A DNA stretch of 64,000 bases from assembly GCF_003595525.1 (NCBI RefSeq), contig NZ_CP022680.1, forward strand, positions 1,142,001 to 1,206,000, given 5' to 3'. Positions 248-43,273 of this stretch are shown in pieces (within the stretch, counting starts at the first letter, position 1; the number at the start of each line of letters is the position of its first letter). Below the pieces are notes generated by a model, which was not told the DNA's origin, searched no databases, and saw only the letters and a program-made list of their open reading frames with translations. Position numbers and translations under genes: made by a program. Source of the stretch: Streptococcus respiraculi. Lineage in GTDB: Bacteria; Bacillota; Bacilli; Lactobacillales; Streptococcaceae.

Positions 248-1879
248 ATGATGAAAAAGAATGATATTGTAGAAGTAGAGATTGTGGATTTGAGTCATGA
301 GGGGCAAGGAGTCGCAAAGGTAGATGGTTTGGTCTTTTTTGTGGGAAATGCCCTGCCGGGTGAGATGATTTCCATGCGCGTGCTCAAGATCAATAAGAAA
401 ATCGGCTATGGTAAAGTCGAGGAGCGCCTCACTACATCTCCTGACCGTAATGAAGCGATTGATGTCGCTTATTTACGAAGCGGAATTGCTGATTTGGGGC
501 ATTTAGACTATGAAGCGCAACTCCGATTTAAAACCAAGCAGGTTAAGGATAGCCTCTACAAGATTGCAGGAATCAAGGAGATAGAAGTACCACTCACGCT
601 TGGTATGGAAAAGCCCTTTGCCTACCGAAACAAGGCACAAGTCCCTGTCCGCCGTGTCAATGGGCAGTTAGAAACAGGATTCTTCCGCAAAAATTCGCAT
701 GATTTGATGCCGATTGAGGATTTCTATATCCAGCATCCTGAGATTGACCAAGTGATTGTGGCCGTGCGTGATTTACTGCGCCGCTTTGACTTAAAAGCTT
801 ATGATGAACAGGAAAAATCAGGTCTCATCCGCAATGTCATTGTCCGCCGTGGGCATTATACAGGTGATATCATGGTGGTCTTTGTTACCACCCGTCCTAA
901 AATCTTTCGCATTGAGCAGCTGATAGAGCTTTTGGTGGCGCGGTTCCCGCAGATTAGCTCCATCATGCAAAACATCAATGACCGAGACACCAATGTCATC
1001 TTTGGACCAGACTTTCGCCTGCTCTACGGAAAAGATGTAATCAGTGATCAAATGCTGGGCAATACCTTTGATATCTCAGCTCAATCTTTCTATCAAGTCA
1101 ATACTGAAATGGCAGAAAAACTCTACCAGACAGCTATTGATTTTGCTGCTGTCACGCCAGATGACATCGTGGTTGATGCCTACTCTGGTATCGGAACGAT
1201 TGGACTATCCTTTGCCAAGCACGTAAAAGCTGTCTATGGTGTCGAAGTTGTTGCACAGGCGGTGGAAAATAGCAAGCGGAACGCCAGCCTAAATGGCATT
1301 ACAAATGCGCACTATGTCTGTGATACAGCGGAAAAGGCTATGGCAAACTGGGTCAAGGAAGGGATTAAAGCAAATGTCATTGTCGTTGACCCACCGCGCA
1401 AAGGCTTGACAGAAAGCTTTATCAATGCCAGCTGCCAGATGAATCCAGACAAGATTGTCTATGTTTCCTGCAATGTCGCAACCCTTGCGCGTGACCTCAA
1501 ACTCTACCAAGAACAAGGCTACACACTCCGCAACATCCAGCCAGTAGACTTATTCCCGCAGACGCATCACGTCGAGACGGTAGCATTATTGTCCAAACTT
1601 AATGTCGATAAGCATATAAGTGTTGAAGTAGAGCTGGATGAACTTGATTTGACAAGTGCGGAGAGCAAAGCTACTTATGCTCAGATTAAGGAATATATAT
1701 TAGAAAAATTTGGTTTGAAAGTTTCAGCACTCTATATTGCCCAGATTAAAAAGAAATGTGGAATAGAGTTGAGAGAAAATTATAATAAGTCAAAAAAAGA
1801 AAAACAAGTTATTCCACAATGTACACCGGAAAAAGAAGATGCTATTATGGATGCGTTAATGCACTTTAAAATGATTTAA
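248..1879 (+). CDS. rlmD: 23S rRNA (uracil-5-)-methyltransferase RlmD/RlmCD-type, C-terminus replaced by an ICE-encoded tail
   Basis: SAM-dependent m5U methyltransferase acting on 23S rRNA. Visible parts are an N-terminal TRAM-like domain (about residues 1-60), the SAM-binding stretch [17 protein letters not shown], and the catalytic-Cys motif YVSCN near residue 408. The Fe-S cysteines usual in this family are absent: the corresponding stretch reads [18 protein letters not shown]. The native protein should end soon after QTHHVE. Here an ICE-derived tail of about 100 residues follows ([20 protein letters not shown] and on to HFKMI). The tail starts at GTCGAG (1571-1576), the left junction of the ICE. 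Excision is predicted to restore a 451-aa protein ending VECVALLVKA. The Shine-Dalgarno sequence is weak, and two adjacent ATG codons (248 and 251) are possible starts. Confidence 0.9.
1571..1576 (+). other. attL core (GTCGAG) in rlmD
   Basis: GTCGAG starts exactly on a codon of rlmD (Val442-Glu443). The same hexamer, also on a codon boundary, lies near the end of the recombinase gene. Large serine recombinases of the TnpX group cross over at a GA dinucleotide, which this hexamer contains. Confidence 0.7.
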
Positions 1880-1898
1880 GAGAAGGGAGGGGTATTAT

Positions 1899-2180
1899 AT
1901 GAGGTGGATATTAAAAATAATCTTGTTTCCAATAATATTACTTCTATCAATACTAATTTCTTTTCTAAAATTCATAATTAGTGTTAGTGGAATGATTTTA
2001 GGGATATTATCATTCTTAGTGGTGTTAGGTTCGATTGCAGCACTTATACAAAAAGATACAACTACCTTTATTCAGGCATTGATAATAGCATTTTTGATAA
2101 GTCCTTATGGACTACCTAAAATAGCATTATGGATTACAGCATATATTGAATTTGCAAGAGATAGATTGAAAGAAATATAA
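1899..2180 (+). CDS. CD1845-type small membrane protein of the ICE
   Basis: A 93-aa protein that is almost entirely hydrophobic, with an N-terminal helix (RWILKIILFPIILLLSIL) and two further segments, ending in a charged tail. It resembles the CD1845 family found next to the attachment end of Tn1549/CTn-like elements; the function is unknown. A strong ribosome binding site (GAAGGGAGG) precedes the ATG. A rho-independent terminator follows at 2193-2223, so it may be a separate transcript from the downstream genes. Confidence 0.7.
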   Translation: MRWILKIILFPIILLLSILISFLKFIISVSGMILGILSFLVVLGSIAALIQKDTTTFIQALIIAFLISPYGLPKIALWITAYIEFARDRLKEI

Positions 2181-2192
2181 AGAAACTATTGA

Positions 2193-2223
2193 GGCGATAG
2201 AGAAAAATACTATCGTCTTTTTT
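2193..2223 (+). terminator. Intrinsic terminator or attenuator before the replication initiator gene
   Basis: GGCGATAG (2193-2200) pairs with CTATCGTC (2210-2217) and is followed by a run of T. It ends 35 nt before the next start codon, and similar hairpins precede several other ICE genes. Confidence 0.7.
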
Positions 2224-41345: not shown

Positions 41346-41513
41346 GTGGATAATGACTGGAATGGATTAGCTGATTTGATAGCAAATCTGATTACAAAGT
41401 ATGCTGGTGTTTTAGATTTGGATAATCTGCCAGATCCAAAGCCAGTAGATAATAACATTGAAAATGGAAATATTTTTGGCATAGTAAAAACACAGATTGA
41501 GAAAATAAAATAA
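41346..41513 (+). CDS. 55-aa protein next to the recombinase gene, unknown
   Basis: GTG start, 5 nt after GAGGAGGTG (41332-41340). The product starts MDNDWNGLADLIANLITKYA and ends KTQIEKIK; it is acidic and probably helical. Its position just before the recombinase gene would suit a recombination directionality factor, but it lacks the basic HTH usual in excisionases. The recombinase promoter begins at its stop codon. Confidence 0.55.
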   Translation: MDNDWNGLADLIANLITKYAGVLDLDNLPDPKPVDNNIENGNIFGIVKTQIEKIK

Positions 41514-41525
41514 AAGTGCTATAAT
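41498..41525 (+). promoter_or_regulatory. Promoter of the recombinase gene
   Basis: TTGAGA (41498-41503), 16 nt, then TATAAT (41520-41525) with TG before it. The 15 nt TAAAAGTGCTATAAT are identical to the promoter before the AbrB gene. Confidence 0.65.
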
Positions 41526-41596
41526 ATACTTGAGATATAAGTCCAAACTTTTTTGGAAAGTATAAAGATATAGAAAAAGATATTGAGGTTAATGCT

Positions 41597-43273
41597 ATGT
41601 CAAAAGAGAAAATAAAAGTATACCTCTACACAAGAGTATCTACATCAATACAGATAGATGGCTATTCTTTAGAGGCACAAAAATCAAGAATGAAGGCTTT
41701 CGCCCTTTATAATGATTATGAAATTGTTGGGGAATATGAAGATGCAGGCAAATCTGGAAAATCTATTGAGGGAAGAATACAGTTTACTCGTATGATGGAA
41801 GATATAAAATCCGGAAAGGATGGAGTATCTTTTGTTCTTGTGTTTAAGCTGTCAAGATTTGCAAGAAATGCTGCTGATGTTTTGTCAACTCTACAAACGA
41901 TGCAAGATTTTGGAGTCAATTTGATTTGTGTTGAGGATGGGATTGATTCATCCAAAGATGCAGGCAAACTGATGATTTCAGTTTTATCAGCTGTGGCTGA
42001 AATTGAAAGAGAAAACATTCGTGTTCAAACAATGGAAGGTCGCATTCAAAAGGCAAGAGAGGGAAAATGGAACGGAGGGTTTGCCCCGTATGGGTATCAG
42101 CTTGTCGATGGAAAACTGTTTATCAATGAAGAAGAAGCTGTAGCAATAAGAACTATTTTCGATCAATATGTTAATACAAACATTGGAGCAAATGGACTTT
42201 CTAAATATTTAGAGAATCATGGAATAAGAAAAATTCCAAGACAGAACGGAAAAAATCCATTGTTCGATGCAGGTCTTATAAGAAAGATATTAAAGAATCC
42301 TGTATATAACGGAAAGATAGCCTTTGGAAGAAGAACACTAGAAAAAGTTCATGGTACAAGAAATGAATACAAGCAAGTTGAACAAGATGAATATTTAATA
42401 GCTGAAGGTATTCATGAAGCTATCATTTCTGACGAGCTGTGGCAGGCTGCTCAGGTTAAGCTAAAATCTCAGGCAAAGAAATATGAACATGTGAATAAGG
42501 GAAAAGATGTTAGAACACATTTGCTATCAGGAATTGTAAAATGCCCAATATGTGGAGCTGGAATGTTTGGCAACAAGTGCATTAAGCGTAGAAAAGACGG
42601 AACAAAATACAAAGATTTTTACTATTACGGCTGTAAACATAGATTGATGAATAGAGGTCATAAATGTAATTACAATAAACAAATTAGAGAAGAATTGCTA
42701 GATGATGCAGTTGCTGAGGTAATTATAAAGATAGTAAGCAACCCTAAATTTGCTTCTATGATGCAAGAAAAAATTAACATGAAGGTAGATACCTCTGAAA
42801 TAGAGAAAGAGATAGATAATTACCAGAAAGAATTGAGGAAGAGCCATTCTACGAAATTTAAGCTAATTGAGGAAATAGATAATTTAGATGCTGATGATAA
42901 GCACTACAAACGAAGAAAGCAGGACTTAGACGATAGACTTTATCGTATGTATGATAAGATTGAAAACTTAGAATCATTGTTAATTGATGCGAAAGCAAAG
43001 AAACAAACTATTGAAACTGAGAAACTTACAGGAGATAACATATATAAAGTTTTGATCTATTTTGATAAACTCTACAAGGTAATGAATGATGTAGAGCGTA
43101 GACAGTTAATTACAGCTTTGATTTCTGAAATTCAAATTTACGAAGAAAAGCAACCGAATGGACAATGGCTAAAATCAATTACTTTTAAACTTCCTATCAT
43201 TGATGAAGATTTAAATATAAGTTTGGACAATGATGAGCAAGTCGAGTGTGTTGCTCTGCTCGTAAAAGCCTAG
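41597..43273 (+). CDS. Large serine recombinase (ICE integrase), C-terminus formed by the rlmD remnant
   Basis: A 558-aa TnpX-like large serine recombinase. The resolvase domain has catalytic Ser15 in YTRVSTSIQ and LSRFARNAADVLSTL. The recombinase domain follows (NPVYNGKIAFGRRTLEK), then a zinc ribbon (CPICGAGM and CKHRLMNRGHKCNY) and a coiled coil near 410-480. The last codons (QVECVALLVKA) match the RlmD end ([10 protein letters not shown]) and are read from chromosomal DNA beyond attR. In the circular ICE the ORF would instead run into the tail now attached to RlmD, giving about 650 aa. It catalyses integration and excision. Confidence 0.92.
   Translation: MSKEKIKVYLYTRVSTSIQIDGYSLEAQKSRMKAFALYNDYEIVGEYEDAGKSGKSIEGRIQFTRMMEDIKSGKDGVSFVLVFKLSRFARNAADVLSTLQTMQDFGVNLICVEDGIDSSKDAGKLMISVLSAVAEIERENIRVQTMEGRIQKAREGKWNGGFAPYGYQLVDGKLFINEEEAVAIRTIFDQYVNTNIGANGLSKYLENHGIRKIPRQNGKNPLFDAGLIRKILKNPVYNGKIAFGRRTLEKVHGTRNEYKQVEQDEYLIAEGIHEAIISDELWQAAQVKLKSQAKKYEHVNKGKDVRTHLLSGIVKCPICGAGMFGNKCIKRRKDGTKYKDFYYYGCKHRLMNRGHKCNYNKQIREELLDDAVAEVIIKIVSNPKFASMMQEKINMKVDTSEIEKEIDNYQKELRKSHSTKFKLIEEIDNLDADDKHYKRRKQDLDDRLYRMYDKIENLESLLIDAKAKKQTIETEKLTGDNIYKVLIYFDKLYKVMNDVERRQLITALISEIQIYEEKQPNGQWLKSITFKLPIIDEDLNISLDNDEQVECVALLVKA
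43241..43246 (+). other. attR core (GTCGAG) at the recombinase 3' end
   Basis: GTCGAG is on a codon boundary of the recombinase gene (Val549-Glu550). The 27 bases beyond it (10 codons counting from GTC, then TAG) are the displaced native end of rlmD. Confidence 0.7.

Follow-up and report, generated by a model that had tools for sequence, protein, structure and literature searches.

Predicted in-frame exchange of a conserved C-terminal domain between the 23S rRNA methyltransferase RlmD and the serine recombinase of a streptococcal integrative element

The rlmD locus of Streptococcus respiraculi

The 64,000 nucleotides of the Streptococcus respiraculi genome analysed here (contig NZ_CP022680.1, positions 1,142,001 to 1,206,000 of the forward strand; hereafter the window, to which all coordinates refer unless another locus is named) contain an integrative and conjugative element (ICE) inserted at the 3' end of rlmD, the gene for a 23S rRNA uracil-C5 methyltransferase (Table 1). 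The ICE encodes a large serine recombinase, and the hexamer GTCGAG, the core of the attachment site, is found both in rlmD, at 1571, and in the recombinase gene, at 43241. An original prediction, made from the sequence of the window, held that the core starts on a codon boundary (Val-Glu) in both genes, such that integration swaps their C-termini in frame, and reading of both open reading frames (ORFs) bore this out. Each gene would therefore end in sequence that originated with its partner: RlmD in a tail borne by the ICE, and the recombinase in the last codons of native rlmD.

In the integrated state, the rlmD ORF (248-1879) encodes 543 amino acids (aa), and that of the recombinase 558 aa. 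When the host flanks were joined in silico, RlmD came to 451 aa with the terminus HHVECVALLVKA; the joined ends of the ICE encoded a recombinase of 650 aa, with the whole tail at its C-terminus. All four of these lengths had been predicted correctly, and the joined junctions, that of the circle included, were in frame, in support of a reciprocal exchange of C-termini. The in-frame swap of the tail between host RlmD and ICE recombinase is confirmed at the level of these predicted ORFs.

Table 1. Coordinates of the features of the rlmD locus and its integrated element
Feature	Position	Strand	Details
Host part of RlmD (23S rRNA uracil-C5 methyltransferase)	248..1570	+	441 codons 5' of the core; TIGR00479 rumA, 444.8 bits against a cut-off of 183.55
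attL copy of the core, GTCGAG	1571..1576	+	Crossover most likely at the GA dinucleotide 1574-1575, as placed from the centre of the attP inverted repeat
ICE-borne tail	1571..1879	+	102 codons and a stop; continues the RlmD frame as integrated, and the recombinase frame once the ICE is joined end to end
Tail-side arm of the attP inverted repeat, CATTATTGTCCAAACTT	1584..1600	+	
ICE body between both core copies	1577..43240		Coupling protein, VirB4-like ATPase, topoisomerase, relaxase and ATP-binding cassette (ABC) cargo
Large serine recombinase, short (integrated) form, 558 aa	41597..43273	+	PF00239 (resolvase), PF07508 (Recombinase), PF13408 (zinc ribbon)
Recombinase-side arm of the attP inverted repeat, AAGTTTGGACAATGATG	43219..43235	+	
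attR copy of the core, GTCGAG	43241..43246	+	
Native rlmD terminus of the host (CVALLVKA and stop), at present the recombinase end	43247..43273	+	Same or near-same ending in the empty-site relatives L148 and L147

Empty sites and the symmetry of attP

The core occurs six times on the two strands of the window, against 8.7 matches expected by chance. As the hexamer is not over-represented, the repeat alone proves nothing, and the evidence for an exchange comes from its context. It could be argued from the same count that the boundary is misplaced, or the match fortuitous, and that no swap took place. This is almost certainly wrong, as it is opposed by rlmD genes at empty sites, by the symmetry of attP, and by natural fusions of related recombinases to the tail.

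Thirty rlmD loci were read for their 3' ends; that of L146, with an RlmD 89% identical to that of the window, was not read. The empty-site relatives end as had been predicted from a native RlmD terminus of VECVALLVKA: L148 (RlmD 76% identical) ends HVECVALLVKA, and L147 (87% identical) ends HVECVALLVKS. The sequence TAGAAACCTT lies next, 3' of the rlmD end, matching the window from 43271. At L145 (91% identical), RlmD ends HVECVSLLVKER.

The joined attP contains a 17-bp inverted repeat (43219-43235 and 1584-1600), of which 16 of 17 positions pair, centred between the G and A of the core. Across attP, 22 of 40 positions pair, a value reached in 30 of 5000 shuffles that preserved the composition of each half, not its dinucleotides; the symmetry of attB was without such an excess (2072 of 5000 shuffles). 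Six further recombinase and tail pairs from the genus, which bring the comparison to seven element pairs with that of G039 left out, had 17-19 pairs per 30-32 positions around the same centre. The contiguous repeat of the core varied over these seven, with the third base of the Val codon differing in three, and at most 12 bases extending past the core shared in the others. The GA was retained in all seven. Serine recombinases exchange strands at a two-base crossover, and the conservation of GA would fit such a crossover, located at positions one and two of the Glu codon.

Short and long forms of the recombinase

The recombinase has the three domains of the large serine recombinases (Table 1), and the predicted model of a relative has the long helices (403-431 and 440-478) of their coiled coil. 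It does not belong with the Ccr recombinases of the staphylococcal cassette chromosome mec (SCCmec), scoring 219 bits with the CcrB model against an NCBIfam equivalog cut-off of 900. Its family was sampled as 99 loci of 46-100% identity, consisting of nine from the sampled genus, ten viral contigs, and the best 80 of 206 genome records, with at least one record counted twice (L039 and L058, the latter being S. infantis NZ_JAHZPU010000039.1).

The 3' end of the recombinase gene was present in 97 of these loci (it was missing in L053 and L054), and the reading frame extended to the core in 96 of the 97, the exception being L073, in which a stop lies one codon before it. With counting begun at the first core residue, 72 loci encode 7-23 residues, including three that also have a stop farther upstream, 11 extend for 101-115 residues into the tail, and eight are intermediate, including L052 at a contig end. 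Another four end otherwise, with a stop at the core in L060 and L069 and an odd motif in L079 and L106; L046 additionally meets a contig end. Judged by their likeness to RlmD ends across the set, the short recombinase ends appear to be host rlmD ends. The frames of L060, L069 and L073, which are closed within the core or immediately ahead of it (VET, VE and one codon before, respectively), perhaps represent secondary-site insertions.

Natural fusions of recombinase and tail, 649-663 aa long, occur among the relatives. When the last 175 residues of one of these (L047, 654 aa) were used as a query, 119 of the best 120 proteins had the tail motif near their C-terminus, and 82 were full-length recombinases of 603-655 aa; among the matches listed, 68 of these 82 were 651 aa long. 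In genomes G459, G460, G461 and G464, an RlmD-tail is followed 10-15 kb on, along the same contig, by a recombinase-tail in which the tail differs. These are stacked elements, the source of at least some of the long forms, and hence the recombinase of the first is in its long form inside the chromosome. The expectation that the 650-aa protein would exist only in the circle was consequently too narrow. The viral contig L055 also encodes a recombinase-tail. Farther along, on the opposite strand, lie genes that by name appear to encode phage structural proteins, an arrangement that points to the genome of a free phage with its attP.

Traces of stacking were seen elsewhere. Two different tails lie in tandem about 600 bases apart at L031 and L008 (G121:C1), near a 65-codon remnant of a recombinase end, with the rlmD of this genome on another contig; these are the remains of stacked elements. 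At least two copies per genome of the rlmD 3' end and the sequence following it, kilobases apart or on other contigs, were found in G002, G003, G005, G010, G014 and G016, and possibly mark repeated insertion at rlmD.

Conservation and distribution of the tail

No Pfam or NCBIfam family matched the tail above its cut-off. Ten positions are invariant across 30 aligned tails, with conserved residues throughout, and the ratio of nonsynonymous to synonymous substitution rates (dN/dS) between pairs had a median of 0.057 and a maximum of 0.243 (77 of 105 pairs were usable). Mantel tests used 17 chosen pairs, each of one RlmD-borne tail and one recombinase per element with adjacency not confirmed for every pair, and left out, for instance, G039, G052, G575, G581 and genomes with fused recombinases. 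In this set, tail distances correlated with recombinase distances (r 0.65, with none of 5000 permutations as high; partial 0.62) more than with RlmD distances (r 0.32, 78 of 5000; partial 0.22), and the recombinase and RlmD distances correlated with an r of 0.24 (419 of 5000). Both types of evidence support the view that the tail is a conserved domain of the element, and mainly of its recombinase, rather than a random run-on.

The first residues of the tail have a further property. In G135 and G143, a tail starting TEAVVKLSK is found on a paralogous methyltransferase, and the recombinases end VEAVVKL, which implies that the start of the tail copies the end of the targeted gene. The tail might have no role in recombination at all: VETVALLSK would preserve the last strand of RlmD, sparing the host, and the rest would be an unrelated small gene of the element, with a frame open to both partners by chance. 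The copying of the native target end by the core-adjacent codons in both target paralogues (VETVALL and TEAVVKL) is as this would have it. However, a dN/dS of about 0.06 over the whole tail, conserved residues all along it, and, in 96 of 97 relatives, a frame that stays open as far as the core are more than the repair of an end needs, and make such an origin distinctly improbable.

RlmD proteins with a tail are common. Of the 7993 candidates scored, which were about 300-950 aa long, at least 7723 passed an E value of 1e-5 for the tail, and matches were also found in 2001 proteins of 56-178 aa. Among 147 genomes sampled from the genus, taken to be Streptococcus, 22 had a tail match and eight a recombinase of the window type (E 1e-40), and rlmD frames long enough to include a tail (at least 545 aa) were found in 11 of 145 sampled in the genus. 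Across 299 genomes drawn from the phylum, nine had a tail match at E 1e-8, the window's own included. The tail has two in-frame codons of start type among its first 43 (TTG at 1589 and 1649), and neither was preceded by a Shine-Dalgarno-like sequence.

Comparison of the tail profile with the PDB returned 31 matches up to an E value of 10, the best of which (E 0.018) was a ribosomal protein. A reading of 1602-1812 as ribosomal protein L23-like was rejected as too weak, given a Pfam E value of 0.017, with 16 bits against a cut-off of 30.8, and PDB profile E values from 0.037. This likeness, below the cut-off as it is, is curious given that the tail sits on a 23S rRNA methyltransferase. Matches were also seen on enterococcal plasmids, with 38% identity in the rows listed; the one region opened lay among drug-resistance genes.

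A recombinase with a permanent tail

Six viral contigs (L138, L139 and L255-L258) encode a recombinase of 627 aa that ends in the tail and has no core. Directly downstream of this gene lies a second recombinase, which does end in the core (as read in L138 and L140, and judged by matches in the others). As read from these predicted genes, a serine recombinase can carry the tail as a permanent component. The tail-like gene upstream of the recombinase in L138-L143 had been a candidate for a separate small protein, and was rejected, since the ORFs in L140 and L138 are the C-terminus of the other, 627-aa recombinase. Further recombinases with a permanent tail numbered none in 13 genomes, in a search without a positive control, and one in 398 (L254) in a further search; the frame of L254 contains a TAG and still has a core-like VDTIALL, and it was not counted.

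A different arrangement was seen at L140:6301-8373, where the core of the second recombinase is followed in frame by an ASCH domain, ending in another core-like sequence, VCLLSRK. Passengers other than the tail may therefore be exchangeable at the same core.

A proposed mechanism and its alternatives

The in-frame junctions, the symmetry of attP, the native RlmD end, and the natural long and short forms in relatives can all be read in the DNA. Probably, though by no means certainly, they are best explained by an in-frame attP within the recombinase gene, through which the tail domain is swapped with RlmD, generating two forms of recombinase that are likely functionally distinct. Firstly, attP would lie inside the recombinase coding sequence, sharing its codon phase with the attB that terminates rlmD. 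Secondly, in the circle, the recombinase would read through attP into the 102-residue tail, producing the 650-aa long form. Thirdly, integration would place the tail on RlmD, extending it from 451 to 543 aa, and leave the recombinase with 8-10 host-specified residues, as the 558-aa short form. Fourthly, excision would restore the original ends of both proteins. The long form would be that which integrates, being the only one available to a circle that has just entered a cell. Excision would have to fall to the short form, perhaps aided by the tail on RlmD in trans, since an element integrated on its own encodes no further member of this recombinase family. Hence it is most likely that the two forms act differently. 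RlmD itself probably remains functional, given that the opening residues of the tail, VETVALLSK, nearly reproduce its native terminus.

Multiple observations weigh against this explanation. The one codon phase common to these elements amounts to a single inherited event, and phase, taken by itself, would agree by chance in a third of cases. In all four genomes examined, the long form spans a junction between stacked elements, and the circle is known only by joining in silico. The 13 natural recombinase-tail junctions are less symmetric than attP, with 9-18 of 30 positions pairing at the expected centre, which was the best in eight of them, although weaker symmetry would be expected if many combine ends that stem from separate elements. 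AlphaFold modelling of the long form of a relative gave a poor result, with a mean predicted local distance difference test (pLDDT) of 65.6 and a predicted template modelling score (pTM) of 0.32, such that the placement of the tail on the recombinase is not readable from it; within this model, the tail has predicted helices at 588-599, 605-614 and 638-650, behind a low-confidence stretch. The permanent tail represents one lineage only, its six contigs being 96-100% alike. On a methyltransferase, tails are interrupted by stops in G104 and G016, with further broken tails in G043, G087, G082 and elsewhere. Three genomes of the genus, G058, G083 and G091, keep an intact RlmD-tail, but searches of the adjoining 40, 60 and 60 kb, respectively, on the downstream side with three serine recombinases as queries found no relative; conjugation genes there were only partial, and found in G083 and G091.

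The final set of counter-evidence comes from a second family of recombinases, of the type of phage phi-SgaBSJ27_rum and plasmid pAPRE01, referred to here as family B. These use the same rlmD core, which was present at the recombinase end in ten of the 13 loci examined, and in all ten of these it lies in another frame. Nevertheless, a conserved tail follows at least two family-B recombinases (at full length in L002, and over the 33 residues seen in L228), and hence the tail can persist without fusion to a recombinase. Of all the evidence, family B argues most strongly against a tail that belongs purely to the recombinase. One of these loci, L002, the plasmid pAPRE01 of Anaerococcus prevotii, has two different tails (2333-2728 and 4956-5309 of that locus), the first of which overlaps the recombinase gene out of frame.

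The retention of the tail by family B, and the intact RlmD-tails of G058, G083 and G091 with no recombinase in the stretch read, would be expected if the tail instead functioned on RlmD or in trans. The element would then capture the rlmD promoter to produce a tail protein, in the form of an RlmD fusion, that aids excision or alters the methylase, with fusion to the recombinase a by-product of phase. The methyltransferase motif DPPRxG, found in 119 of the best 120 tail-bearing proteins of about 300-950 aa, also favours such an arrangement. Yet the tail tracks the recombinase more than it does RlmD, the sister recombinase has it permanently, and the stops in G104 and G016 imply that the host gene is not always in need of it. 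This alternative is hence considered rather unlikely.

Under the preferred explanation of a tail swapped between RlmD and two recombinase forms, a more specific role for the tail is possible, though doubtful: it may be a shuttling directionality domain. A small helical domain would reside on the recombinase in the free element, and on the host rRNA methyltransferase when integrated, such that the state of the DNA sets the form of the recombinase, with the host enzyme serving as a carrier, and possibly as a donor in trans. Stacked elements in rlmD would then put the inner copies into the long-form state within the chromosome. If the tail does set direction, the switch would be written into the attachment site, and reset at each recombination. 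Every such ICE would also give its host a modified rRNA methyltransferase.

Relation to known systems

C-terminal exchange at rumA/rlmD is already in print, in the passages of Ambroset et al. 2016 (PMC4701971) that concern streptococcal ICEs in rumA. These describe an att site within the serine integrase gene, with integration exchanging the 3' parts and altering both C-termini in sequence and length; the reading frame changes on exchange, and the two integrase forms may differ in function. The window ICE resembles the elements of those passages (PMC4701971) in its target gene, its single serine integrase, the att site in the integrase gene and the exchange of 3' ends, but differs in that the frame is kept, rather than changed, and a conserved domain is exchanged. 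The statement on frame change, as worded in PMC4701971, would fit the family-B recombinases, not the family of the window. What appears to be new is the frame-keeping recombinase family, the exchanged conserved domain that tracks the recombinase, the frequent long forms, and the sister recombinase with a permanent domain. In-frame exchange of a domain was not found in the literature searched, in which PMC4701971 was the one paper found on the exchange; a search by term found no passage on it in PMC7168690, PMC5704250, PMC10044541, PMC5357655 and PMC7563491.

The attP of the Myxococcus phage Mx8 also lies in its integrase gene, and integration replaces a C-terminus of 112 residues with one of 13, the altered integrase being less active (Magrini et al. 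1999, as recounted in the relevant part of PMC4701971). The window ICE is alike in having attP inside the recombinase coding sequence and a C-terminus switched by integration, whereas the Mx8 enzyme is a tyrosine integrase. No host enzyme is known to acquire a conserved domain from Mx8. This phage provides a precedent for recombinase activity that depends on the form of the protein.

Mycobacteriophage BPs similarly has attP in a coding gene, the long viral and short prophage forms of the product differing in C-terminus and activity, according to the sections of PMC4557955 on this switch. There, however, the switched protein is a repressor, the 33 residues lost carry an ssrA-like degradation tag, and no host enzyme is described in those sections as receiving a domain (PMC4557955). 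The pattern common to Mx8 and BPs, of attP within a coding sequence and two forms according to state, was found for the window ICE in its joined ends, and in the natural long and short forms of its relatives.

A different parallel comes from the prophage protein YotN, presumably a directionality factor. By its title, PDB entry 9dxd contains YokA with YotN in one chain, which joins a serine integrase to a second prophage protein. By analogy with that chain, direction might be set by a small domain added to the recombinase, although 9dxd is, from the name of its molecule, apparently a made construct, and the 31 matches of the tail profile in the PDB (E up to 10) did not include it. The direction of serine recombinases is usually ascribed to a separate directionality factor that binds the recombinase, such as gp3 of phiC31, in the account of these enzymes drawn on from PMC5814800.

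Cargo of the element

The ICE carries further genes in addition to those for conjugation. The 1249-aa product of 27419-31168 has a YobI-like P-loop ATPase domain and matches the PADLOC model Tmn (E 1.9e-63), making this gene a candidate for ICE-borne anti-phage defence. Between 33183 and 40196 lie an apparent TetR-type regulator, two ABC transporter half-proteins and a transporter set of the energy-coupling factor (ECF) type, annotated from Pfam for 33932-35689 only and judged by eye for the remainder.

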